From NCBI RefSeq assembly GCF_949628265.1, contig NC_088786.1, positions 42,181,681 through 42,245,680 of the forward strand: a stretch of DNA of 64,000 nt. The letters are read 5' to 3'. Below, one piece after another: positions 1 through 58,000 of this stretch (position 1 is the stretch's first letter; every line of letters starts with the position of its first letter). Below the pieces are notes generated by a model. That model made no database searches and had not been told where the DNA came from. It saw only the letters and a list, made by a program, of their open reading frames with translations. The translations under genes and the position numbers were made by a program. The DNA is from Cloeon dipterum (lineage: Eukaryota; Arthropoda; Insecta; Ephemeroptera; Baetidae).

Positions 1-3000
1 CAAGAGTCACGCTATTCAGTGAACTTGGCACAAAACACTCATATTGGGCAGACACCAGAGCTCAAAATGTTTCAACAAGACATAAAATTCATTATCTCAA
101 AGTGAGTGTCACAAAGAAATTAATCGGAAAAATGTAGATAAGAGCAAACCTAGTTTACTCTCCACACAATCCAACAAAAAGTATATCAGTTTCTAATAGT
201 TAAATTTTTTAGGGCTAAAATCCCAGCAAAACCTTCTTCAAGCACTGATGGGTCTGGTAACGTGAGCAAAGTCTCAAATGAAATACAATCCGTCAACTTC
301 TCCTGGAAATCAGATGAAAGACAAGATATCAGGGGTCGTAGAGGTTTTATTTTATCAGTGGTCCGAAACAAACAAGTGCAAGAAATGACAAGAGCTCTTC
401 AGAACCTGGACTTCGAAGTTACAGACTGGATACTGAGTAGTAAATCCCTGGAGTTTTATTTAAAGACAGGTGAGCAGAAGCCAACGAAGGCGATAAATTA
501 GTTTGATTTAATTCTGGTATTACAGTATCTGAGTTGGAACCCGACGTGGGCTGCATTTTGACCTGCATATTTGGTCCTGTGTTTGAAAACGAACAGAAAG
601 AGGTTTGTGTACGTGTTGGCCAAGATGCTCGTCCAATCGCAGACATCCTCTACAGCTTGGTCGGCCCTAGAAACGACAAATTGATAGGAAAGCCGAAAAT
701 TCTGTTCGTTGTTAACGTGGAAGCACCGAAGACTGACAGTGTAAGCTCTATTCCAACTAATGCAAAAGATGAGATTAATTCATATCTTTTAAATTAGATT
801 TCTTTGGACGTGAAAGATTTACAAGTCTCTGCAACAAACCACAGTGGCTGGCTAGTTTTGATTTTAAAATATGAAGGTAAGTTCAGACAGAACGTGATTC
901 ATCAAAAGATGCGCATACTTAATTACTTCTTTCTCAGATTCATCAGAGAAGTTGATTGAACTACTTGGAAAGATCGGTGAGAAAAGCCTGCAAGAACTTC
1001 TGGAGCCTCTGCTAACTCGTGAGTCAAATAGAGAAAGTGCTGTTCTTCTCAATTCAACTTTGCAGTATATCTTAAAATTTCCGGTTTGGCCAAGAGCATT
1101 TGTAAAACCCGATTTCAAGCTGAAAACGACAAAAATCCCCTGTGACCAAATGGTTACTTTCGAAAATTCTAAGGAATATCCTATTGGGGAAAAGATCGAT
1201 TTTGATACATTATTCAAAATAGCAAAAAGATTGTTTGAGGAAAACAAAAAATCAATTGAGAGTCCACTTCAGGAAATGAGCCATGTTGAAAATTCAGAAA
1301 TATTAAGTGATATTGAAACTTCGATTACGTTGAATCCCGTCAGAGAATTAGAATCTTTATCTGCAGCTGAAAATTCTGCTGAAGCGAGCATTGTCTGGTT
1401 GTTTAATTCAGTTGCTGGAGCAGGCAAATCGACCGTTCTCAAAGAAATGGCGCACCAACTAACCAAACATGATGGAGGTTTTAAAGTACTGCTGATTCCT
1501 CTCAAAAAACATTATCGCTACTTATTTGACATGCCTGCAATGAACGTGAATGAAATCGAATTTCTCGTTAAGACAACTTGCAATTCTCTTGACGACATCA
1601 ACAACTGGATTAAGAAGAGAGAACTCATTGTTTTCCTCGACGGATTCGACGAATTGTGTCCAGATTTCAGAGAAAAAATCATAGATATTTTGATTGCATT
1701 AAATAAAGCAAGAGTCCCACTCTTTATCGGAACGAGGCCTCACGAAGTGCACCACATTCAAGAGAAGATAAAAAACTCGACGATAATTGAGATCGAACCC
1801 CTTGATGAAGCAAAGCAAATCGAGTTTCTGCGGAACGTGACCAGAAAGAATCAGCAACAAATCGACCATTTGATGAAAGTCTTCAAAGACCAAGACATTC
1901 TGGGAAACCCACTCTATCTCACTTTGTTGGCCGAGCACAAAGGTGATGGAAACCTGTATGAAATCTTTGACACAATGGTGCGGCACAAAGTAGAGATTTC
2001 TTTGAAGAGAGAAAATGGAGGCAAAGATGTTGGAGAAGAGAAGATTGAAAATTCATTGAAGTTCATTCAATTGGTGGCCTCTCGTTTTATGACAGGGGTG
2101 AAGATCGACCAAGGTAGTGTTACAAAGGATGAATTGGAGAAGATGAATGCTTTTGGAGTTGTGACATATTACAATGACACAGTAAATTTCACTCACCAAG
2201 TGTTTGCAGAATTTCTTACCGCGCAAAAATGTATATACGATTTGAAAAATCCAGTAGATGAAAGAGTGCCCTTGTTCAATGATGAACTGATGCAGTGCAG
2301 GAAGTTTGTCGACCTTTTCTTTTCCACAGAAATGGGGAAGGACACGTCGTACAAAGAAGCTTTTAAGGTTTTTGCAATATCAACCGATCCTTTGCAATTA
2401 GTTAAACAAACATGTCGAGAGAATTTGAGGCAAATGTTCAATTTACTCAACCCCGATCTCTCATTAAAAAATGAAGACGGAAAAAACGCTTTGCACTTCG
2501 CATTGAGGCATCTTGAAATGGCCAAGATGGTGCACAAAAAGAACAGCAAGCTATCGACCGAAATAACCAACAATGGAGAAAACTGTCTCCACTTGGCGAT
2601 TGATGACGAAGAATGCAGCGAGAAAGTGGCTCTTTGGATTATGCAAAACATTGAAGTGGACAAAAACGCTGAAACCAAAATTGGGGACACACCACTTTTG
2701 CTGGCTGGAAAAAGAAAAAAATGGGAAGTAGCGCAGCAGCTTGTATTGAAATACAAAGTTGAAGTTAACAAAATTGATTCAACGGGAAACACATTTTTGC
2801 ACTATGCTGTCCAGTCAAATAAATTGGATTTAGTGCGCGCACTTCTTGATAAGAGCTCAAATGTCAATTTAAAAAATAAAAAAGGAAACTCAGCCCTTCA
2901 CCTTGCTGCTGGGTGGAATAAAAACCCAGAAATCGTGAAAATATTACTTCAAAAAGGGGCCGAAGTTAATGCAAAAAACAATGATAACTGGACCGCACTA

Positions 3001-5853
3001 CATTATGCCGCTTCAAATAACCCAAATGTAGAAGTGATCCAAAAGCTGCTCGAAAACCGCGCCGACGTTGATTCACAAACTAAATTAGGAACTACAGCCC
3101 TTCACCTAGCTGCTCGGAATAATGAAACCCCAGAAATAGTTACAATTTTGATTCAAAATGGGGCCAAAATAAATGCAAAAGACAATGATAACTGGACCGC
3201 ACTACATAAAGCAGCTTCAAATAACCCAAATGTACAAGTGATCCAAAAGCTGCTCGAAAACGGCGCCGACGTTGATTCACAAACTAAATTAGGAACTACA
3301 GCCCTTCACCTAGCTGCTCCGGATAATAAAAACCCAGAAATAGTTACAATTTTGATTCAAAATGGGGCCAAAATAAATGCAAAAGACAATGATAACTGGA
3401 CCGCACTACATTTCGCCGCTTCATTCAACCCAAATGTAGAAGTGATCCAAAAGCTGCTCGAAAACCGCGCCGACGTTGATTCACAAACTAAATTAGGAAC
3501 TACAGCCCTTCACCTAGCTGCTCGGAAAAATGAAACCCCAGAAATAGTTACAATTTTGATTCAAAATGGGGCCAAAATAAATGCAAAAGACAATGATAAC
3601 TGGACCGCACTACATAAAGCAGCTTCAAATAACCCAAATGTACAAGTGATCCAAAAGCTACTCGAAAACGGCGCCGACGTTGATTCACAAACTAAATTAG
3701 GAACTAGAGCCCTTCACCTAGCTGCTTGGAATAATAAAAACCCAGAAATAGTTACAATTTTGATTCAAAATGGGGCCAAAATAAATGCAAAAGACAATGA
3801 TAACTGGACCGCACTACATTTCGCCGCTTCATTCAACCCAAATGTAGAAGTGATCCAAAAGCTGCTCGAAAACCGCGCCGACGTTGATTCACAAACTAAA
3901 TTAGGAACTACAGCCCTTCACCTAGCTGCTCGGAATAATGAAACCCCAGAAATAGTTACAATTTTGATTCAAAATGGGGCCAAAATAAATGCAAAAGACA
4001 ATGATAACTGGACCGCACTACATAAAGCAGCTTCAAATAACCCAAATGTACAAGTGATCCAAAAGCTGCTCGAAAACGGCGCCGACGTTGATTCACAAAC
4101 TAAATTAGGAACTACAGCCCTTCACCTAGCTGCTCCGGATAATAAAAACCCAGAAATAGTTACAATTTTGATTCAAAATGGGGCCAAAATAAATGCAAAA
4201 GACAATGATAACTGGACCGCACTACATTTCGCCGCTTCATTCAACCCAAATGTAGAAGTGATCCAAAAGCTGCTCGAAAACCGCGCCGACGTTGATTCAC
4301 AAACTAAATTAGGAACTACAGCCCTTCACCTAGCTGCTCGGAAAAATGAAACCCCAGAAATAGTTACAATTTTGATTCAAAATGGGGCCAAAATAAATGC
4401 AAAAGACAATGATAACTGGACCGCACTACATAAAGCAGCTTCAAATAACCCAAATGTACAAGTGATCCAAAAGCTACTCGAAAACGGCGCCGACGTTGAT
4501 TCACAAACTAAATTAAGAACTAGAGCCCTTCACCTAGCTGCTTGGAATAATAAAAACCCAGAAATAGTTACAATTTTGATTCAAAATGGGGCCAAAATAA
4601 ATGCAAAAGACAATGATAACTGGACCGCACTACATTTCGCCGCTTCATTCAACCCAAATGTAGAAGTGATCCAAAAGCTGCTCGAAAACCGCGCCGACGT
4701 TGATTCACAAACTAAATTAGGAACTACAGCCCTTCACCTAGCTGCTCGGAATAATGAAACCCCAGAAATAGTTACAATTTTGATTCAAAATGGGGCCAAA
4801 ATAAATGCAAAAGACAATGATAACTGGACCGCACTACATAAAGCAGCTTCAAATAACCCAAATGTACAAGTGATCCAAAAGCTGCTCGAAAACGGCGCCG
4901 ACGTTGATTCACAAACTAAATTAGGAACTACAGCCCTTCACCTAGCTGCTTGGAATAATAAAAACCCAGAAATAGTTACAATTTTGATTCAAAATGGGGC
5001 CAAAATAAATGCAAAAGACAATGATAACTGGACCGCACTACATTTCGCTGCTTCATTCAACCCAAATGTAGAAGTGATCCAAAAGCTGCTCGAAAACCGC
5101 GCCGACGTTGATTCACAAACTAAATTAGGAACTACAGCCCTTCACCTAGCTGCTCGGAATAATGAAACCCCAGAAATAGTTACAATTTTGATTCAAAATG
5201 GGGCCAAAATAAATGCAAAAGACAATGATAACTGGACCGCACTACATAAAGCAGCTTCAAATAACCCAAATGTACAAGTGATCCAAAAGCTACTCGAAAA
5301 CGGCGCCGACGTTGATTCACAAACTAAATTAGGAACTAGAGCCCTTCACCTAGCTGCTTGGAATAATAAAAACCCAGAAATAGTTACAATTTTGATTCAA
5401 AATGGGGCCAAAATAAATGCAAAAGACAATGATAACTGGACCGCACTACATTTCGCCGCTTCATTCAACCCAAATGTAGAAGTGATCCAAAAGCTGCTCG
5501 AAAACCGCGCCGACGTTGATTCACAAACTAAATTAGGAACTACAGCCCTTCACCTAGCTGCTCGGAATAATGAAACCCCAGAAATAGTTAAAATTTTGAT
5601 TCAAAAAGGCGCCAAAATAAATACAAAAGACAATGACAAATGGACCGCACTGCATTTGGCTGCTAAATTAAACTCAAATCCCGAAGTGGTTCAAAAGCTG
5701 CTTGATCAAGGCGCGGATGTAAATGTAGAAAACGACTGCGGAGAAACTGCTTTATTTCTCGCCATAAAGCATAATCCAGTGAAAGAAGTGATTACGAAAT
5801 TGCGCGAGCATGGGGCCAAGGAAATCAATGACAAAAAATGTATCGTTTCATAA
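1..5853 (+). CDS. Caspase-NACHT-ankyrin receptor, copy 1 (5' end outside window)
   Basis: Visible exons are 1-101, 213-469, 526-740, 798-876 and 938-5853, all phase-consistent and matching copy 2 exon for exon. Exon 1-101 is the tail of a caspase p10 domain (GQTPELKMFQQD). Exons 213-876 encode a second caspase-like domain without catalytic residues. The last exon holds a NACHT ATPase: Walker A SVAGAGKST near 1411-1437, Walker B IVFLDGFDE near 1627, a sensor-like GTRP near 1732, an NPLYL motif, and the winged-helix motif NFTHQVFAEF near 2188. About 33 ankyrin repeats of mostly 34 residues then run to the stop TAA at 5851-5853. By family knowledge, NACHT proteins are nucleotide-switched oligomerising receptors and ankyrins are ligand or partner binders. 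An immune or cell-death role is inferred. The N-terminal half lies left of the window. No frame break is seen. Confidence 0.9.
2890..5650 (+). repeat. Homogenised tandem ankyrin-coding array, copy 1
   Basis: Thirteen occurrences of the TALHLAA start at exact 204-bp spacing from about 3091 to 5539. Each 204-bp unit codes two ankyrin repeats. Units alternate in a higher-order pattern (AAR.N..K then AAP/AAW.N..F), giving 408-bp blocks and a four-unit 816-bp block that appears twice (from about 3091 and about 3907). Neighbouring units are almost identical at the nucleotide level, including third positions, so the expansion or conversion is recent. Confidence 0.9.
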
Positions 5854-28716: not shown

Positions 28717-31700
28717 ATGCAAACGGAAGAAAATTATTTCGCTTACTGTTTGGATACGAACACCAACATAAATTACTTTGTCGTACCGTCAAAGTTTTTG
28801 AAACCAAGACCAAAAGCAATAAATTCGAAACCAGGAGTTGCCTGGGTCACTCTTGGTCAAGACTTCTGGGGAGGTGTGTTCCAATCAGCATGGCTAAAGT
28901 CTTTGGAGATGGACCCTGACGATGGGTTCTTCCTGGACAAAAAACCCGACAAGGATTTCGAGCACTTGCTGACCGAGGCAGAGTACAAAGATTGTCTCGT
29001 TCTTGCCACTGCATCCTCAGTCCAAGAATTGCAAGTGTTCGTTCAAACGTGCAACATCAAAATTCCAAAGAAATACAAACGTTTGGACTATTCTGACGCT
29101 TCAGGAAGTCAACAACTCAACGAGACGCAGCAGGTTCGTAAAGAGTTTGTTTTTATGAAAATCCTTTACAACTATATGTATATCTCATTTCATCTTGACG
29201 TCATATAGAACCAGAAACATCAGATAATAATAAATAACCAACTCTTTACTAATATTTCTCAGCAAAACAAGCAATTAGAGAGTGCCGAATCCAATCAGCA
29301 AACGAGTAATAAAGACATTTCAACGGCCTCAAAAGGATCGGAGGAGTCAAACTCTGCCACAATATTTCCGGGAGGTGTGCAAAAATTTTATCACCCTTTG
29401 AAAATCCCATCGAATAATAATGTTTTTACAGGAGCAACTCCTTTCGTTCTGCCACAAGAGCGCAAAGAAATTGATTTGGAAAAACCGATCGAGTCGCATG
29501 ATGTCTCGGAGAATGACTATAGAGGTAGTGCTATAGCGAGGCGTGATTACTACTAAAATTTCCAATCTCCGTCATCACATGTAATTAGAATAGTTGGTAA
29601 ATAATTGCACTTCATTTATTCCAGGCAATTCACACATTCGACCTAAAGGGGTTGCGAATTTAGGATTTTTTGAATCTGAAAAAGATGGAATGGTCAACAG
29701 AAAAAACGCAGACAAGTAATTTTTTCTGAGTTTAGACATATTTAGAAACTAACATCGCCATTTCAAGTGTTTGTGTCCTGGTCATTCACTACGATTTCAA
29801 AAACGATCCTGAATTGATCCGAAATGGAGACGCCCGTGACGTAAAACATATCGAGAGAATCTTCGGGGGAAACCGGAATTGCAATTTCCGTAATTTCCGA
29901 TCACCGAACAAAAAGACTTTGCTTCAACTTCTGGGTGACCAAGAAAAGCTTTTACAGTACTTTAACTCAAAAGGTTTCACATTCAAATTAAAAGTTATAT
30001 GAGATTATGATCACATTTCTGATTCAGATGACGTGCCCTCTGTTTTCGTGCTTTTCATTCTCTCTCATGGGACTGAAAACGGAACAATATTGACAGACCT
30101 TTTAGATAGTGAAACAAACAAATACGAATATTTCACAACAGATGAGGTTTTGGACTCATTGCAGAACCTTAAGAAATTCGAAAAATGTCTGAAAGTTGTA
30201 AATTTTGGGGTAAGCTCAAAATTCATAATTTTTAACAAAAGAAACCAGGAATATTGCAAAATAGTCATGTCAAAATATTCTTTCATGTTTCAGCCATGTC
30301 GGGGGATGTTGGTGGATTCAAAGTTCGTCAAGAAGAATTCATACCCAAACTATAAAAACGACAATTCATGCAGAATCACCAATCGCCCAGGAATGCACAA
30401 CTACGTCGTGTTCTATTCGACAGTTGAAAGTAATTTTTTACAGCAACGATTCTTCATTCGTAACGTCAATAAATTTGAAAATCCTACAGCGACATTGGCT
30501 AACACTGATGAAAATGGTTCATGGATGGTCCGAAATATGTGCACGTGTCTCGACAGCGCTACTGATGATGAGTCCTTGTTGAAATTCTTCACTATTGTTC
30601 AGAATCGCATGCATCAAGAGTCGCGCTCTTTAATGAACCTAGCAAAAAACACTCATATTGGGCAGACACCAGAGCTCAAAATGTTTCAACAAGACAAAAA
30701 ATTCATTATCTCAAAGTGAGTGTCATAAATTTATTAATCGGAAAAATGTCGATAAGTGCAAACCTAGTTGATTTTCCACACAATCCAACAAAAAGTGTAT
30801 CAGTTACTAACAAAAAAAATTTCAGGGCGAAAATCCCAGCAAAACCTTCTTCAAACACTGATGGGTCTGGAAACGTGAGCAAAGTCTCAAATGAAATACA
30901 ATCCGTCAACTTCTCCTGGAAATCAGATGAGGGACAAGATATCAGGGGTCGTAGATGTTTCATTTTATCCGTGGTCCGAAACAAACAAGTGCAAGAAATG
31001 ACAAGAGCTCTTCAGAACCTGGACTTCGAAATCACAGACTGGACACTGAGTGGTAAACCCCTGGGATTTTATTTAAAGACAGGTGAGCAGAAGCCAACGA
31101 AGGAGATAAATTAGTTTGATCTAATTCTGTTTTTACAGTATCTGAGTTGGAACCAGACGTGGGCTGCATTTTGACCTGCATATTTGGTCCTGTGTGTGAA
31201 AATGAAGAGAAAGAGGTTTGCGTGCGCGTGCAAAAGGGTAAAAATATTCCAATCAAGGACATCCTCTACAGCTTGGTCGGCCCTAGAAACGACAAATTGA
31301 TAGGAAAGCCGAAAATTCTGTTCGTTGTTAACGTGGAAGCACCAAAGACTGACAGTGTAAGCTCTATTCCAACTGTTCCAAAAGATGAGATTAATTCATA
31401 TCTTTCAATTTAGATTTCTTTGGACGTGAAAGATTTACAAGTGTCTGCAACAAACCACAGTGGCTGGCTCGTTTTGATCTTAAAATATGAGGGTAAGTTC
31501 AGACAGAACGTGATTCATCAAAAGATGCGCATACTTAATTACTTCTTTCTCAGATTCATCAGAGAAGTTAATTCAACAACTTGGAAACATCGGTGACAAA
31601 AGCCTGCAAGAACTTCTGGAGCCTCTGCTAACTCGTGAGTCCAATAGAGAAGATGCGGTTCTTCTCAATTCTACTTTGCAGTATATCTTAAAATTTCCGA

Positions 31701-34700
31701 TTTGGCCGAGAGCATTTGTAAATCCCGATTTCAAGCTGAAAACGACAAAAATCCCCCGTGACCAAATGGTTGCTTTCGGAAATTCTAAGGAATATCCTAT
31801 TGGGGAAAAGATCGATTTAGATACATTAATCAAAATGGCAAAAAGATTGTTTGAGGAAAACAAAAAATCAATTGAGAGTCCACTTCAGGAAATGAGCCAT
31901 GTTGAAAATTCAGAAATATTAAGTGATATTGAAACTTCGATAAAGTTTAATCAAGTCAGAGAACTAGAATCTATCTCTGAGGCTGAAAATTCTGCTGAAG
32001 CGAGCATTGTTTGGTTGTTTAATTCAGTTGCTAGAGCTGGCAAATCGACCGTTCTCAAAGAAATGGCGCACCAACTAACCAAACAAGATGGAGGTTTTAA
32101 AGTTCTGCTAATTCCTCTCAAAAAACATTATCGGTACTTATTTGACATGCCTGCAATGAACGTGAATGAAATCGAATTTCTCGCCAAGACATCTTGCAAT
32201 TCTCTTGACGACATCAACAACTGGATTGAGAAGAGAGAACTCATTGTTTTCCTCGACGGATTCGACGAAGTGTGTCCAGATTTCAGAGATAAAATCATAC
32301 ACATTTTGATTGCAATAAATAAAGCAAGAGTTCCAGTCTTTATCGGAACCAGGCCTCACGAAGTGCACCACATTCAAGAGAGGATACAAAACACGACGAT
32401 AATTGAGATCGAACCACTTGATGAAGCAAAGCAAATAGAGTTTCTGCGGATTGTTGGCCGAAAGAATGAAAAAGATATCAATCAATTGAGGGAAAACTTC
32501 AAAGACAAAGATATTCTGGGAAACCCACTCTATCTCAATTTGTTGGCCGATTACAACGGTGATGGAAACTTGTACGAAATCTTTGACACAATAGTGAGGC
32601 GAAAAGTAGAAATTTGCTTGAAGAGAGAAAACGGTGGCAAAGATGTCGGAGAAGAGAAGATTGAAAATTCATTGAAGTTCATTCAATTGGTGGCCTCTCG
32701 TTTTGTGACAGGAGTGAAGATTGACCAAGGTAGTGTAACAAAGGAACTTTTGGAGGAGATGAATGCTTTTGGAGTTGTGACATATTACAATGACACTGTA
32801 AATTTCACTCACCAAGTGTTTGCAGAATTTCTTACCGCGCAAAAATGTATATACGATTTAAAAAATCCAGTATCTGAAAGAGTGCCATTGTTCAATGATG
32901 AACTGATGCAGTGCAGGAAGTTTGTCGACCTTTTCTTTTCCACAGAAATGGGGAAGGACACGTCGTTCAAAGAAGCTTTTACGGTTTTTGCAAAATCAAC
33001 CGACAAATTGCAATTAGTCAAACAAATATGTCGAGAGAATTTGAGGCAAATGTTCAATTTTCTCAACCCCGATCTCTCATTAAAAGATGAAGACGGAAAA
33101 AACGCTTTTCACTTCGCATTGAGGCATCTTGAAATGGCCAAGATGGTGCACGAAAAGAACAGCATGTTAGCAACCGAAATAACAAACAATGGAGAAAACT
33201 GTCTCCACCTGGCGATTGATGACGAAGAATGCAGCGAGAAAGTGGCTCTTTGGATCATGCAAAACATTGAAGTGGACAAAAACGCTGAAACCAAATCTGG
33301 GGACACACCACTTTTGCTGGCTGGAAAAAGAAAAAAATGGGAAGTAGCGCAGCAGCTTGTATTGAAATACAATGTTGAAGATAACAAAATTGATTCAACG
33401 GGAAACACATTTTTGCACTATGCTGTCCAGTCAAATAACATAGATTTAGTGCGAGTACTTCTTCAAAGGGGCTCAGATGTCAATTTCAAAAATAAACAGG
33501 GAAACTCAGCCCTCTACCTTGCTGCTGGGTTGAATAAAAACCCACAAATCGTAAAAATTTTGCTACAAAAAGGTGCCAAAGTCAATGCAAAAAACAATGA
33601 TAACTGGACCGCAATACATTGTGCCGCTTCAAATAATCCAAATGTAGAAGTGATCCAAAAGCTGCTCGAAAACGGCGCCGACGTTGATTCACAAACTAAA
33701 CTAGGAGCTACAGCCCTTCACCTAGCTGCTCGGAATAATAAAAACCCAGAAATTGTCAAACTTTTGCTTGGAAGCGGTGCCAAAATAAATGCAAAAGAAA
33801 ATGATAACTGCACCGCACTACATTGTGCCGCTTCAAATAACCCAAATGTAGAAGTGATCCAAAAGCTGCTCGAAAACGGCGCCAACGTTGATTCACAAAA
33901 TGAAGAAGGAACTACAGCCCTTCACCTAGCTGCTCGGAATAATAGAAACCCAGAAATTGTGAGACTTTTGCTTGGAAGCGGTGCCAAAATAAATGCAAAA
34001 GACAATGATAACTGGACCGCACTACATAAAGCCGCTTCAAATAACCCAAATGTAGAAGTGATCCAAAAGCTGCTCGAAAACGGCGCCGACGTTGATTCAC
34101 AAACTAAACTAGGAAATACAGCCCTTCACCTAGCTGCTCGATATAATGAAAACCCAGAAATCGTGAGAATTTTACTGCAAAAAGGGGCAAAAATAAATGC
34201 AAAAGACAATGATAACTGGACCGCACTACATAAAGCCGCTTCAAATAACCCAAATGTAGAAGTGATCCAAAAGCTGCTCGAAAACGGCGCCAACGTTGAT
34301 TCACAATCTAAACTAGGAGCTACAGCCCTTCACCTAGCTGCTCGGAATAATAAAAACCCAGAAATTGTCAAACTTTTGCTTGGAAGCGGTGCCAAAATAA
34401 ATGCAAAAGACAATGATAACTGCACCGCACTACATTACGCCGCTTCATGTAACCCAAATGTAGAAGTGATCCAAAAGCTGCTCGAAAACGGCGCCGACGT
34501 TGATTCACATACTAAAGAAGGATATTCCGCCCTTCAATGTGCCGCTTCAAATAACCCAAATGTAGAAGTGATCCAAAAGCTGCTCGAAAACGGCGCCGAC
34601 GTTGATTCACAAACTAAACTAGGAAATACAGCCCTTCACCTAGCTGCTCGATATAATGAAAACCCAGAAATCGTGAGAATTTTACTGCAAAAAGGGGCAA

Positions 34701-36673
34701 AAATAAATGCAAAAGACAATGATAACTGGACCGCACTACATAAAGCCGCTTCAAATAACCCAAATGTAGAAGTGATCCAAAAGCTGCTCGAAAACGGCGC
34801 CAACGTTGATTCACAATCTAAACTAGGAGCTACAGCCCTTCACCTAGCTGCTTGGAATAATAAAAACCCAGAAATTGTCAAACTTTTGCTTGGAAGCGGT
34901 GCCAAAATAAATGCAAAAGACAATGATAACTGCACCGCACTACATTACGCCGCTTCATGTAACCCAAATGTAGAAGTGATCCAAAAGCTGCTCGAAAACG
35001 GCGCCGACGTTGATTCACATACTAAAGAAGGATATTCCGCCCTTCAATGTGCCGCTTCAAATAACCCAAATGTAGAAGTGATCCAAAAGCTGCTCGAAAA
35101 CGGCGCCGACGTTGATTCACAAACTAAACTAGGAGCTACAGCCCTTCACCTAGCTGCTCGGAATAATAAAAACCCAGAAATTGTCAAACTTTTGCTTGGA
35201 AGCGGTGCCAAAATAAATGCAAAAGACAATGATAACTGCACCGCACTACATTACGCCGCTTCATGTAACCCAAATGTAGAAGTGATCCAAAAGCTGCTCG
35301 AAAACGGCGCCGACGTTGATTCACATACTAAAGAAGGATATTCCGCCCTTCAATGTGCCGCTTCAAATAACCCAAATGTAGAAGTGATCCAAAAGCTGCT
35401 CGAAAACGGCGCCGACGTTCATTCACATACTAAAGAAGGATATTCCGCCCTTCAATGTGCCGCTTCAAATAACCCAAATGTAGAAGTGATCCAAAAGCTG
35501 CTCGAAAACGGCGCCGACGTTGATTCACAAACTAAACTAGGAGCTACAGCCCTTCACCTAGCTGCTCGGAATAATAAAAACCCAGAAATTGTCAAACTTT
35601 TGCTTGGAAGCGGTGCCAAAATAAATGCAAAAGACAATGATAACTGCACCGCACTACATTACGCCGCTTCATGTAACCCAAATGTAGAAGTGATCCAAAA
35701 GCTGCTCGAAAACGGCGCCGACGTTGATTCACATACTAAAGAAGGATATTCCGCCCTTCAATGTGCCGCTTCAAATAACCCAAATGTAGAAGTGATCCAA
35801 AAGCTGCTCGAAAACGGCGCCGACGTTCATTCACATACTAAAGAAGGATATTCCGCCCTTCAATGTGCCGCTTCAAATAACCCAAATGTAGAAGTGATCC
35901 AAAAGCTGCTCGAAAACGGCGCCGACGTTGATTCACAAACTAAACTAGGAGCTACAGCCCTTCACCTAGCTGCTCGGAATAATAAAAACCCAGAAATTGT
36001 CAAACTTTTGCTTGGAAGCGGTGCCAAAATAAATGCAAAAGACAATGATAACTGCACCGCACTACATTACGCCGCTTCATGTAACCCAAATGTAGAAGTG
36101 ATCCAAAAGCTGCTCGAAAACGGCGCCGACGTTGATTCACATACTAAAGAAGGATATTCCGCCCTTCAATGTGCCGCTTCAAATAACCCAAATGTAGAAG
36201 TGATCCAAAAGCTGCTCGAAAACGGCGCCGACGTTCATTCACATACTAAAGAAGGATATTCCGCCCTTCAATGTGCCGCTTCAAATAACCCAAATGTAGA
36301 AGTGATCCAAAAGCTGCTCGAAAACGGCGCCGACGTTCATTCACAAATTGGGGAAGGAAGTACAGCCCTTCACCTAGCTGCTCGGAATAATAGAAATCCA
36401 GAAATTGTGAGACTTTTGCTTGGAAGCGGTGCCAAAATAAATGCAAAAAACAATGACAAATGGACCGCACTGCATAAAGCCGCTACATTTAACTCAAATC
36501 CAGAAGTGGTTCAAGAGCTGCTTGATCAAGGCGCGGAAATAAATGTAGAAAACGACTGCGGAAGAACTGCTTTATTTCTCGCCGTAAAGCATAATCCAGT
36601 GAAAAGAGTGATTACAAAATTGCGCGAGCATGGGGCCAAAGAAATCAATGACAAAGAATATATATTGTTTTAG
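28717..36673 (+). CDS. Caspase-NACHT-ankyrin receptor, copy 2 (complete, 2398 aa)
   Basis: Eleven phase-consistent exons: 28717-29133, 29263-29374, 29432-29524, 29625-29715, 29768-29973, 30028-30209, 30294-30715, 30826-31082, 31139-31356, 31414-31492 and 31554-36673. The start is the first ATG after an in-frame upstream stop. Residues 1-237 are unrecognised. A caspase (C14) domain spans about 238-507, with IRNGDARD (S1 Arg), catalytic LSHG (His about 319), PCRG (Cys about 369) and p10 motifs YSTVES and GSWMV. A degenerate caspase-like domain spans about 508-692. NACHT has a Walker A-like SVARAGKST (about 850) and Walker B FLDGFDE (about 925). About 35 ankyrin repeats run from about 1203 to the end. 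A receptor that activates its own protease arm is inferred. The Walker A carries Arg where copy 1 has Gly. No signal peptide or membrane segment is seen. Confidence 0.9.
33430..36440 (+). repeat. Homogenised tandem ankyrin-coding array, copy 2
   Basis: The array consists of 102-bp ankyrin units in a higher-order 408-bp block with starts at about 35131, 35539, 35947 and 36355. Each block has one LGATALHLAA unit, one INAKDNDNCTALHYAA unit and two HTKEGYSALQCAA units. Blocks are essentially identical at the nucleotide level. The block composition differs from that in copy 1, so the two arrays were amplified separately after duplication. Confidence 0.9.
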
Positions 36674-50520: not shown

Positions 50521-50762
50521 GGGGTCGGGTTCCGATCTGTGTTGATTCTCGCAGGTCAGGAGTCAATATGACGTCGAAATAATGGAGGCCAATCAGGAGC
50601 GTCAAAAAATGGGGCGTGCCGACCTAATTTTGACCGCGTATTTTGTTTCGCAACAACTTCGGCAGAATTTCGCTCCTTGCACCAAAATCTCATTCCCCGC
50701 CATTTTGTCCCCACCACAAAGATATTTCACTGCTTCATTCTCGTGCATCGAAATGCGTGTAG

Positions 50763-50771
50763 ATATAAAAG
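50763..50771 (+). promoter_or_regulatory. TATA box of the Yellow-family gene
   Basis: ATATAAAAG lies 86-94 bp before the start codon at 50857. This leaves room for a transcription start near 50795 and a short leader. No other TATA-like site lies closer. Confidence 0.55.
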
Positions 50772-50856
50772 CCCTCTCCCACTCTTCTCACTATGTTCCG
50801 AATTTTCTCTAAATTTTACAATTCTTTTTGTGAACAGTTTGGAACAGGCTGGAAGC

Positions 50857-52790
50857 ATGACGACTCCGTTCCTCGTCGCCAGCATTTTCTTGCTCGGCCT
50901 TTCGTCCCTGACCACGGCCGCCAACTTCACTCAAGTCTTTGAGTCGAATGAAATAATAGACTTCGAGTGGCCGTCGGAGGAAATCAAGTCACAGGTCTTG
51001 GAAGATGGAACTTTCAAGCCAGAACATATGTATCCTATTTTCATGGCTGTCTACGGAACAAGGATCTTCTTCAGCCTGTACAAAATTCGCCCAGGCACTC
51101 CGGTGACTCTGGTGTCCTTGCCGACCAGCAACGCGTCCTCTGCACCCCCGAAGCTCACTCCGTTCCCTTCGTGGGACATGCATGTGAGTGGTAGAAAATA
51201 TATTATGCTATTTGTTGTACCTTTTAATGAGGAACGTTTTCCTGAAACTACAAAGGACACATATATATTTAAATATATAAGTTGCAGATTTATGCCAATG
51301 GTTGGTTGCGTAAAAATCGTAAAAATAAAAAATTTTGAGGTTGACCCTGTTTTAAACAATTCCTCCATTTGCAGAAAACAGGAGACTGCAACAAAATTGA
51401 AGAAGCAAAAGGGCTGGAAGTGGATTCTGTTGGAAGGCTGTGGGTGCTCGATGAGGGTAGCTACAATTGCAATTGCAAAATTTGGACCATCGACTTGATC
51501 AAGAACGACCATCACACCAAACTTATTCACCGGTTTTCTTTTCTCCATTCCTTGCATGACTTGGTTCTTGACGAAACGCCCAACGGAACCTTTGCCTACA
51601 TCGCGCGGAGGTATGACTTCAACATTGTCGTGTTTAGTCTGGAGAGAAACCAGTCTTGGATTGTGGACACGCCAGGAAAAAGGGTTAATTCCATTGCCCT
51701 GTCCCCTAAGAATCAGGAAGCGAGAACGCTCTACCTCTACGAACCCTTCTCAAAAGAACTGAATTCGATTTCCGTTGCTGAAGTCCGCAAAGGAACTCGA
51801 ACTGCAAATCCGAAAGCAATCGGAAACTGGAGTGCAGAGACTTACAGAATGCTGATGGACAACCGCGGGACCATATACGCCACCTTTTGGGGAAGAAACT
51901 TCATAAACTCTTGGAATACTTCCCAACCGTTTGAGGTGCAGCGTTTTTATGAGGTATATAACATTTGAGGACGCAGAATAAATAAAATTGATCTCTTTTT
52001 TCGGGTATATTGTGACCAAAAGTTAATATTTTGTCCAGTGCAATGTTTCACGATCTGACCGTTCAATGATAAATATTTTCAATAATTTGAGAGCCAAAAA
52101 GAGCTAGTTTGAGGGGATGGATTTGGGAAAATGGGAAATGGTAGTTTCTTGTTTCAAATTTTAAAATATCACATATTTTCGTTCAATTGAATAAAATTTG
52201 TTGGATTGTTTTATTTTAAAAACAGGGAAATTTCTTAGTTGGAGCCAGGAATTAAAAAAAACGGGCAATTAATGTTGCAGTTAATTGCGAAAGGAAAAAA
52301 CGCGCTTGTTTCATTTGAATTTAACACGGTCTCAAACACTTTTCCTGCATTTTCCAATGAAGTACCAAATTTCGGCTGTATATCTATGGTTATCTGGTTA
52401 ATTTATTAGTTATTGAGTCGGTGCATTTTGCTTGGTTTTAGGACGCCGGACTGGAATTAGATTTTGATCAATTCGCGTTTACTTTTGCCTTGGACCAAAG
52501 TGAAACTCTTTGGATGACGGTGTTAGATTGGAACAGACAGCCGAAATACAGGCTTTTGAAGGCTGCGGTCGGCGCAAAATCGTACATCTTCGAGGCCTCA
52601 CAAGGTAAGTTTCCTCTGTCCCTTGAAATCATTTTAAAAATAATGAAAAATGTCAATTTTCTTCATAATAAAGTACACCTCGTAAGCATATATTTTTTTA
52701 AATTTTAATATAATTTTTATCTGTTCATTCACGTTTGTAGTCCTAAAAAAGCAAAGAGTACAGCGCAATAGTGACGTCAAAATGTTATAG
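50857..52790 (+). CDS. Yellow / major royal jelly protein family, secreted (372 aa)
   Basis: Four phase-consistent exons: 50857-51183, 51375-51953, 52442-52604 and 52741-52790. An N-terminal signal peptide (ATG, then a hydrophobic SIFLLGLSSLTTAA) precedes a Yellow/MRJP domain. Family motifs seen are IDFEWPSEE, GTPVTLVSL, LTPFPSWDMH, the cysteine in GDC, VDSVGRLWVLDEGS, LHDLVLDE and FAYIARR. Yellow proteins are secreted beta-propellers used in cuticle colour, amine binding or other extracellular roles. The specific function here is unknown. The protein is somewhat short for the family and ends in a basic tail from a 50-bp final exon, which is the least certain exon. Confidence 0.85.
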
Positions 52791-55088: not shown

Positions 55089-58000
55089 TTATTTCGAGCT
55101 GAGAATAGACGACGCGAAGATTTGCTGCATGATCTGCGGAATCTTCTTCAGGTCCAGGCACACGAAGGCTCGACCTGACGGCAGTTTCTCAGTCAACCTA
55201 CGAGCAAAAATCAATAAAAAAGACGGAAAAAACTTTGTGCGCATGCGCGAAGAGCTTAAAAAAAGATTACTGCGCATGAGCACGGTTAGAATAATAATTA
55301 CCTGTCGGCCTGGTTGCCGAGCGACCCGATGAAGATGGCGTAGGCGTTGACGTTGGGGTGGGAGGTGAGCACGCGCGCGAATCGCTCCGGCGGAATGCCG
55401 TAGCGCTCCAGATTGGCGTCCGACAGCACGACGACGAACGCCTCGTCGCAGTCCTCCTTGGCCAGCGCCTCCACGGCCACGCTCGTCGCCTCCAGCGTGT
55501 GGTCGCCCGACATGCAGAATTGCGCATGCGCGTGCATCGTCTGACAGGAAAAAGAGAAAATTTTAGAGTTAAAATCGTATTATCAAACGGTTCTTTGTAA
55601 CTGCGCATGCGCAGTAGGGATGGGACTTAACTAGGCAAACGCAGAAGAATTTTAAAAGCCAATTAAATGCGCAGAACGAAGATAATCGTCATTACGCATG
55701 CGCAGAACGGTTTTTTAAAAGATAGGCAAGCGCAGAAGGGCTCCAAAAGCAAATTAAATGCGCAGTGAGGATAAACCGACTCTTCGCCTGCGCAGTGGTA
55801 ATAATCATGCGCCCTAGTACCGTCCGAACATCCTACGCATGCGCAAAAAAGAATCCGAGCACCAAATAACGAAATTCACGTACCTTGATGAGGTCGAGGC
55901 GTTGCTTGTTGTCGGTGGGCGGCGAGCTTTTGTCCACGAAGCGCAGGTCGCAGCTCTCGCCCGAGTGTCCGACGATGTCGTACTGGAACTTGTCCTCGTG
56001 GCCCTCGAAGGCCTCCATCATGAGCGTGGCGGCCTCCATGACCCTGTCGAGGCGTCCGTCGTAGCTGTTGAAGCGGTACATGCTTCCGGACACGTCCACC
56101 ACCAGCTTCAGACGCTTTGGCTTCAGCTGCGGCGCCCCCAGCTCCGGCTCTCGCTCCGCGCGCCGCCGGTAGATGCCCTTCTCACCAGTCAACCCTGAGA
56201 AAAGGTTCGATAATTCACTTCGAACGACGCAAAGGAATAAAAACCGACCTTCGATGAGCTTGGCGTCGTCTAGTTCGCCTGTGGTCTGGTGGCGGAGCCA
56301 CTGTCTCTCCTTAGCCTTGGCCTGAAGGCTGCTCAGGATGACCCTGAGGGCCCTGACCTCCCGGTGCACCGCCTCCGAGTACTGGGCGTACAGCTGGGCG
56401 TCGTACTCGCTCATCCGGATTTGCCGGAGACGCTCCTCGAATGCCTTCCGCCCCATTTCCCGGGCTGCGCGCTTCACGTGCTCAGGTACCGCGTCCTTCT
56501 CCTCCTGACTCACCTGAAAATCCGATTAAAAAGTTCAAAATTTAGAGGGGAGAGCGTAAAAAGGGTCAAATACGCTCAAAATTCTAATAATTTTTTTTTT
56601 ATTTTTAATTCTACACATTTTTAAATAAAACTCAGGGTAATTTACCTGGTAGACGTTGTGCCCTGCGTCGAGCCTGTAGGGTCCGCCCTTTCCGCCGAGC
56701 CCGGCGGTGTCCCTGCCGCCGGTGCCGCCGGCCCAGGTGTTTCCGCCAACGTGCGGGTCGTTGGTGGGGTCGACCTTGCCATATTTGGGCCCTGAGACGG
56801 ACCTGCCGCTCGGCTGCTCGATGGTCAGCTGCAGGTTGCTCGGATCGCCGCCGAGCGCGCGGCGCCACTCTCCGAGCGCCCTTTCCAGCCCGGCGACGCC
56901 CGTCTCCCAGAAGCGCACCGTGCCGCCGGCGTCCACGGACGCCAGGCCCTCGCCGCTCGTGCCGCACACCTGCACCGGCACCTCCAGAGTGTCCAACAGC
57001 CACGCCGTGTACGGCGACACCGTTCGAGGCCTGCACAAGAACGATTTATTAAAATATTTTCTTGAGGCCTGCAGAACGGTGCAGACCGCATAAATAAATC
57101 AGTCCGGGGACGAATGCCAGGTCACGTGACCTGAGGAAGGTCGGTGAAGCGCGAGGGTAAAAAATTGATAGCGAGTAACCCGAAATATGCTTAAAATTAG
57201 TGAAAAAGAATTAATAACCGGCCTCGGAGCGGATCTCAGGTCGCGAGGTACCCTGAAAAAGGTCACAAGGGTACCGCACGTTCAAGCCGAACCAAATACC
57301 TATCTGATGAGGGGTCGTAGTCGTGAATAGGACGAACGGTCGAATTTAGATAAAAATAAAACCATTTTCGGCTGTGCACTTTCCGAGGCAGAAGGAGGGC
57401 AAAAAAAAATTAATTTTAATTTTTCTATGGGCGAGAATAATCTGAAAATCGGTATCCAGACTGGCGTTGGACCTGCGCGTGCGTTGGAGTTGGTAAGACC
57501 CTTCAAGTTTCCTCCGTTCGGAAAAAAAATATTTAATTTCAGATTTCCAACGTAATCCTAATGGAGAATTAAAAAAAAAAACACGTTTTTCAAACTTCAA
57601 AATCGATCTCCTCTTAGAATTTTTATCGGATCGGCTCGAATTTTGTCTCAAAATGTTTCCAGATAAATTCCGCGTCGATTTACCGAGCGGTTTGTTGGAT
57701 TTTTCCCCAAGCGCGAGATATATGGTATCCGGAAGGCGGAAGGCTTTGTAAGAACCGATACTTTGACTGTTTAAAACCTATTAATTAAACGATTTGGATA
57801 AAACTTTCACACAACTTGGATTATCTAATGCCTTGCTCAGACGGCTATAAGCGGCATATCCGTGAAAATCCATTTCCCAGATATAACTTTTAAAATTATT
57901 GATTTTTCCAAAATATTGGCAGATAAAAATTATTTTAAAATTCTAAAAATGGTCCTATTTTGGAAAACCGTTCATGGGCAAATGTGCCCCACCGAGGGGT

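Follow-up and report, generated by a model that had tools for sequence, protein, structure and literature searches.

The window analysed here, 64,000 nucleotides of the mayfly Cloeon dipterum (contig NC_088786.1, positions 42,181,681 to 42,245,680), contains a single plus-strand gene at positions 28717–36673 which encodes a caspase, a catalytically dead caspase (pseudocaspase), a NACHT domain and about 31 ankyrin repeats in one polypeptide chain. The protein belongs to a family with a conserved catalytic pair, a constrained dead domain, an NLR-like NOD part and a conserved Asp site between the two caspase domains. Both the gene and the family are solidly established. With moderate confidence we favour the interpretation that the gene product is an NLR-like immune receptor which carries its own caspase together with a cFLIP-like dead partner.

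The gene was spliced by hand into 11 exons with GT-AG introns. This model is phase-consistent, open throughout and yields a single frame of 2398 residues. The RefSeq gene LOC135948375 (protein P0068, 2378 residues) agrees with it apart from one extra in-frame intron of 60 nucleotides at 30430–30489, the removal of which leaves FYSTVETTLANTDENGSW and gives a better fit to the relatives. The initial annotation, which had described an insect gene of 11 phase-consistent exons for caspase, degenerate caspase, NACHT and ankyrins in one chain, was correct in frame, phase and domain content, while the exon count has to be changed to 12. From exon 4 onward, that is from the caspase to NACHT, each of the five paralogues compared has the exons, and in the expected order. 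Exons 1–3 were not matched throughout these five: exons 2 and 3 gave no match in L048, exon 3 none in L050 and exons 1–3 none in L051. An alternative exon 4/5 junction with a 30-nucleotide intron was ruled out by comparison with the five paralogues. In the protein, an N-terminal domain (residues 1–139) and a linker are followed by the caspase (about 235–487), a short variable linker, the pseudocaspase (about 521–732), NACHT together with the helical and winged-helix part that follows it (about 829–1100) and the ankyrins, which extend to the C-terminal end.

The first caspase domain was recognised by the Pfam model Peptidase_C14 (PF00656) with 60.3 bits at a cut-off of 21.4, the query still containing the 20 residues coded by the 30430–30489 intron. 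A PDB search with the single domain sequence gave an E value of only 0.25, and profiles were needed. A nine-member profile placed caspase-3 and caspase-7 on top (E about 1e-12), and the best 60 of 145 PDB rows were all caspases, including CED-3 and apopain. Individual residues were counted in an alignment of 90 mayfly proteins, with gaps set aside; Arg-64, Gln-161 and Arg-207, in caspase-3 numbering, are residues of the Asp-binding pocket. The catalytic His was found in 78 of 79 and the catalytic Cys in 76 of 80 proteins. The Cys motif of the family is GPCRG, the textbook caspase motif being QACRG. Altered catalytic residues occur in P0004 and P0090, where Ser replaces the catalytic Cys, and in P0064, where Tyr replaces His and the Cys column holds Ser. 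At the position of Arg-64, Arg was found in 69 of 75 rows; at that of Arg-207, 51 of 85 rows have Arg and 26 have Thr. Both Arg residues and the catalytic pair occur together in 44 of the 90 proteins. Our gene possesses the catalytic residues H320 and C369 as well as R256 (the Arg-64 equivalent), so that the earlier statement that all key residues are present is correct for these three and incorrect for the Arg-207 and Gln-161 equivalents, which are Thr and Gly, respectively. The ratio of nonsynonymous to synonymous substitution rates (dN/dS) of the caspase exons was 0.30–0.53 in codon comparisons with four paralogues; the fifth, L051, was saturated. Judged by its sequence, the first domain is a member of the caspase fold (C14A) with a catalytic pair and a predicted protease.

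The second domain alone scored 13.6 bits with Peptidase_C14, below the cut-off. A profile of 11 pseudocaspases matched 56 PDB rows at E≤1, all of them caspases or cFLIP (best 2.7e-6); the profile matches caspase-8, and cFLIP itself appeared only at E 0.37. At the His column Phe was found in 79 and His in none of 87 rows, and Cys was present in none of 83 rows at the Cys column. The caspase signature WIGKPKIFF is kept, G and P of GKPK being present in 86 of 86 rows. Profile and lost residues thus bear out the degenerate caspase-like domain recognised earlier, and its sequence indicates caspase ancestry without the catalytic His and Cys. The domain is not merely decayed, though, and is conserved under purifying selection: its dN/dS was 0.23–0.34, and in three of four paralogue comparisons the active domain had the higher value. 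These low values make a partner or regulatory role likely, and the likeness to cFLIP, which acts as a partner of caspase-8, is an analogy with known biology. A recent tandem duplication of the two caspase domains was also considered and is unsupported, since hhalign detected no similarity between them, though both match caspases.

The NACHT model matched this copy with 27.7 bits in a piece of 1262 residues and with 30.7 bits in the genome search, above the cut-off of 26.7, and with a marginal 25.6 bits when the last-exon frame of 1705 residues was scanned. Caspase-bearing relatives reached up to 51.5 bits. A seven-member NOD profile was aligned to NAIP over positions 4–296 of 315 (E 1.9e-5). 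Among the 24 PDB matches of the NOD at E up to 0.1, 20 were NAIP, NLRP3 (partial matches) or NLRC4, and the other four were Rho and CDC6. The HD1-winged-helix-HD2 region therefore appears to continue after NACHT, and the full NACHT module of the initial annotation is upheld by two scans and the NAIP-wide alignment, with the score in the 1705-residue frame as a reservation. The Walker B Asp is present in 78 of 78 family rows. LRRs gave no match in the Pfam scan and ankyrins are found instead; the protein is thus NLR-like and not a bona fide NLR. The ankyrin array comprises 31 PF00023 stretches, somewhat fewer than the estimate of about 35 repeats. At the other end of the protein, the exon 1 domain matched nothing in Pfam and, in the PDB, nothing below E 2.8. 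It was found, whole or in part, in 15 of 93 retrieved proteins (own record counted) and is kept in one subfamily, four members of which are 45–76% identical to this gene. NCBIfam models run on three proteins gave weak NACHT/ATPase and ankyrin matches, all below the cut-offs, and PADLOC gave weak ATPase matches together with ankyrin-stretch matches, the best being PDC-M72A (6.8e-41) over the ankyrins of P0050.

The gene had previously been treated as a single case; it is in fact one of at least 80 caspase-NACHT loci. Across the genome the NACHT model matched 101 places (E up to 0.001), concentrated on contigs C4 (46) and C2 (34), and at least 80 of them are preceded, at a distance of up to 7 kb, by a caspase match on their own strand. 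Among the matches listed, at least 13 of the other 21 places have a pseudocaspase match within 3 kb and 8 have neither, while a caspase match lies on the 3' side at 5 NACHT places and on the other strand at 1. The paralogue located 30 kb upstream (L047) shows 91% DNA identity to this gene across 4.5 kb that comprise introns as well, which points to recent duplication or gene conversion. Protein searches returned Cloeon dipterum or Neocloeon triangulifer, both Baetidae, in 66 of 66, 27 of 27 and 57 of 60 matches, the other three being NACHT proteins; this restriction to Baetidae holds for searches which require shared 5-residue words. A FastTree phylogeny of 77 rows with a midpoint root, in which this gene was entered twice (11-exon model and P0068), grouped 56 rows in a clade confined to Cloeon (support 0.983) and 14 in one confined to Neocloeon (0.998). 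The Cloeon protein P0047 paired with P0050 from Neocloeon (support 1.0), both being caspase-NACHT proteins. It follows from this pairing and the species clades that the fusion is older than both species and that each then multiplied its own copies. Such species-specific birth of copies is a habit of immune receptors and would support an immune function.

The linker between the two caspase domains, about 33 residues long and variable, contains a conserved Asp site which the initial annotation had overlooked. Asp followed by Ala, Gly or Ser occurred in 69 of 86 linkers compared to 31.8 in shuffled linkers, and none of 2000 shuffles reached 69. After re-alignment one column held Asp in 70 of 76 rows. 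The 69 site-bearing linkers have Ser at P4 in 49 and Thr or Ser at P2 in 47 cases, giving the family motif S-x-T/S-D↓A/G/S; the site of this gene is SSNTD↓GSG. Controls with Glu, Asn or reversed order showed no excess, and Lys plus a small residue showed a slight one (56 vs 48.7; 81 of 2000 shuffles). The excess persisted after thinning to below 60% identity (23 of 33 vs 11.2) and below 50% (14 of 22 vs 6.5). In the link to NACHT there was little Asp-small excess (28 of 75 vs 21.7; 109 of 2000 shuffles). Behind an intact His-Cys pair the site was present in 61 of 75 linkers; among the proteins with altered catalysis it is missing in P0064 and P0090 and present in P0004, three cases being too few for a test. 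The motif looks like a built-in caspase cut site, which would indirectly favour the predicted protease activity after Asp, and the conserved Asp offers a directly testable prediction. The site is a new observation of the present analysis.

These features can be combined into a proposed mechanism. The receptor would be cytosolic with the effector protease built in, and the repeat-rich ankyrin array would sense a ligand or a modified host protein. The NACHT/winged-helix switch would then bind nucleotide and oligomerise, and oligomerisation would bring the caspase domains at the N-terminus close to one another. As a fixed partner, the conserved dead caspase could help the active caspase into an active dimer. 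The caspase would cut host substrates and probably also the linker Asp site, by which it would be released from the receptor. Oligomerisation, heterodimer, autocleavage and immune role are all predictions of this model, as is the suggestion that such a receptor would shortcut the inflammasome. On a wider scale, we tentatively propose, with rather less confidence, that baetid mayflies have a private innate arm of dozens of single-chain "inflammasomes", each combining sensor, NOD switch, active caspase, cis pseudocaspase and self-release site, and checked by a parallel IAP expansion.

Several observations weigh against the proposed receptor. The P-loop GxxxxGK(S/T) is not intact in the family, its first Gly being Ser in 62 of 73 rows, and this copy alone has Arg at a Gly kept in 74 of 76 rows; it may therefore switch poorly. 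In the Asp-binding pocket this gene has Thr in place of Arg-207, and 73 of 81 family rows carry Gly in place of Gln-161. From the P-loop Arg and the pocket Thr, weak or altered function may be predicted for this copy. The absence of hhalign similarity between the two caspase domains belongs here as well. Of the 86 linkers 17 lack the Asp site, including 8 of the 20 from Neocloeon, its excess is weak below 45% identity (6 of 13 vs 2.9; 154 of 5000 shuffles reach 6 of 13), and an Asp-small excess was also seen in the intersubunit linker (49 of 79 vs 25.2) and the pseudocaspase linker (44 of 88 vs 26.0). Finally, gasdermin, which would be an obvious substrate, gave no match in a six-frame, exon-by-exon search of the genome, which can miss divergent genes.

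The last result is also relevant to a different output of the same receptor, namely immune signalling instead of death, in which the caspase would cut a pathway protein such as IMD or Relish in a DREDD-like manner and defence genes would be switched on. DREDD is the known immune caspase of insects, IMD and Relish are proteins of its pathway, and insect IAPs are also active in immune signalling. The missing gasdermin removes the simplest lytic substrate, with the reservation just given for divergent genes, and the IAP/BIR family is very large: 107 BIR matches were found in the genome, 44 of them within about 105 kb of C3 (G000:C3:7772011-7877466). We regard this output as rather unlikely, though as the foremost of the alternatives. 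The abundance of BIR domains is suggestive of a system of numerous caspases needing restraint. Numerous caspase and BIR matches, together with independent expansions in two species, would suit a family for developmental or tissue-turnover death, with caspase switches tailored to moulting or the short adult life. A layout of NOD and repeats and the species-specific birth of copies would be more like immune receptors, however, and we consider a developmental function improbable.

It is also conceivable that the caspase removes only itself or acts as a scaffold or decoy for IAPs, with no protease action on other proteins. Some members without catalysis do carry BIRs: P0064 (LOC135942178) combines dead caspase, pseudocaspase, NACHT and ankyrins with two BIRs and a RING match below the Pfam cut-off, and P0090, with its altered catalytic residue, carries BIR domains. 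However, the catalytic pair is nearly invariant across the family, which makes such a role very unlikely. The least probable explanation is an artefact, either a gene model that fuses neighbours or a decaying, repeat-rich pseudogene family. There are indeed many copies, and several retrieved proteins lack the caspase or the NACHT part; His, Cys, Walker A Lys and Walker B Asp are all present in 59 of 90. Nevertheless, two species show the fusion with its parts in identical order, the exon junctions from the caspase onward are common to five paralogues, dN/dS was below 1 in all domains compared with four paralogues, and fused proteins are predicted both by RefSeq and by a separate annotation on shorter contigs. 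The positions of all features are compiled in Table 1.

Table 1. Features of the caspase-NACHT gene and of a neighbouring paralogue (positions in the window)
Feature	Position	Strand	Basis
Exon 1: N-terminal domain, about 139 residues	28717..29133	+	model, Pfam, PDB
Exon 2: linker	29263..29374	+	model, RefSeq
Exon 3: linker	29432..29524	+	model, RefSeq
Exon 4: lead-in to caspase	29625..29715	+	model, paralogues, RefSeq
Exon 5: caspase start, R256 (Arg-64 equivalent)	29768..29973	+	model, family alignment
Exon 6: caspase, catalytic His320 in SHG (motif codons 30063-30071)	30028..30209	+	family alignment
Exon 7: caspase, catalytic Cys369 in GPCRG (motif spans exon 6/7 junction)	30294..30429	+	family alignment
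In-frame 60-nt intron, not in 11-exon reading	30430..30489	+	RefSeq
Exon 8: caspase small-subunit part	30490..30715	+	RefSeq
Exon 9: linker with putative cut site SSNTD↓GSG (30848-30871), then pseudocaspase start	30826..31082	+	linker analysis
Exon 10: pseudocaspase, His to Phe (CIFGP), Cys-less motif IGKPKILF (31300-31323)	31139..31356	+	family alignment, profile
Exon 11: pseudocaspase small-subunit part, ATNHSGWLV	31414..31492	+	family alignment
Exon 12: pseudocaspase end, NACHT, ankyrins from about 33086, stop	31554..36673	+	Pfam, profile
Walker A (in exon 12)	32021..32050	+	
Walker B (in exon 12)	32246..32269	+	
FTHQVFAEFL motif (in exon 12)	32804..32833	+	
Ankyrin-coding array: 204-nt period (two repeats), 14.8 copies, 75% matches	33507..36522	+	repeat analysis
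Last-exon frame of neighbouring paralogue: 1651 residues, NACHT with VAGAGKST, ankyrins; 5' exons start before window	898..5853	+	

Elsewhere in the window, open frames at 50572–51968 (plus strand) resemble, by eye, a yellow/MRJP-type protein, and open frames at 55833–57098 (minus strand) contain a VWA-like DVSGSM motif, likewise recognised by eye. At G000:C5:27147932-27160033 several further caspase matches lie in a cluster; their PF00656 scores rank among the highest in the genome, and no NACHT match is located nearby. The genome search further revealed one CARD match and five NB-ARC matches, four of the latter at NACHT places.

According to PMC7308585, Drosophila lacks NLRs, in line with the statement of the initial annotation on NACHT receptors, and various arthropods lack bona fide NLRs; about 100 NACHT places in an insect genome are thus unexpected. 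Among the titles and abstract openings retrieved from CC-licensed PMC papers, none concerned mayfly NACHT or animal caspase-NACHT genes. A cnidarian survey (PMC8260672) gives 35 Pfam domains which occur with NACHT, and its table may already list a caspase-NACHT protein of an animal. In the retrieved titles and abstract openings, the combination of an animal NOD with a genuine animal caspase and a pseudocaspase in cis, multiplied in an insect, did not appear.

Among known systems, the animal NLRs NAIP, NLRC4 and NLRP3 share with the mayfly protein a NACHT domain in which Walker B reads DGxDE and which is followed by an FxHxxFxEFLAA motif, whereas the mayfly protein has ankyrins for LRRs, a protease for the CARD/PYD/BIR adaptor and Ser for the first P-loop Gly. 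By analogy, an active caspase beside a conserved dead one recalls caspase-8/cFLIP; the mayfly pair, however, lies in cis in one chain with no DED reported, and its heterodimer is putative. In the Dronc/Dark apoptosome of Drosophila a STAND switch also controls a caspase, the two proteins being joined by CARDs, while the mayfly protein is one chain with no CARD match in the scanned pieces. If our interpretation is true, a single polypeptide would be available to study how a NOD switch turns on a protease.

The likeness to bacterial protease-NACHT fusions, pointed out in the initial annotation, is confirmed by the metacaspase-NACHT-WD40 proteins described in PMC3501461, and caspase-bearing STAND conflict systems are reported in PMC8195603. 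Both combine a protease of the caspase superfamily with a STAND NTPase and repeats. The mayfly protease, in contrast, matches animal caspases and is accompanied by a pseudocaspase and ankyrins; the two layouts were presumably assembled independently. Fungal NLRs with an N-terminal S8 or CHAT protease, which control gasdermins according to PMC12881547, also bear their own protease as signalling module, although the protease families differ and the mayfly genome gave no gasdermin match. The logic of such receptors is therefore already known from fungi and bacteria, and the mayfly gene provides an animal case of a layout otherwise reported from these two groups.

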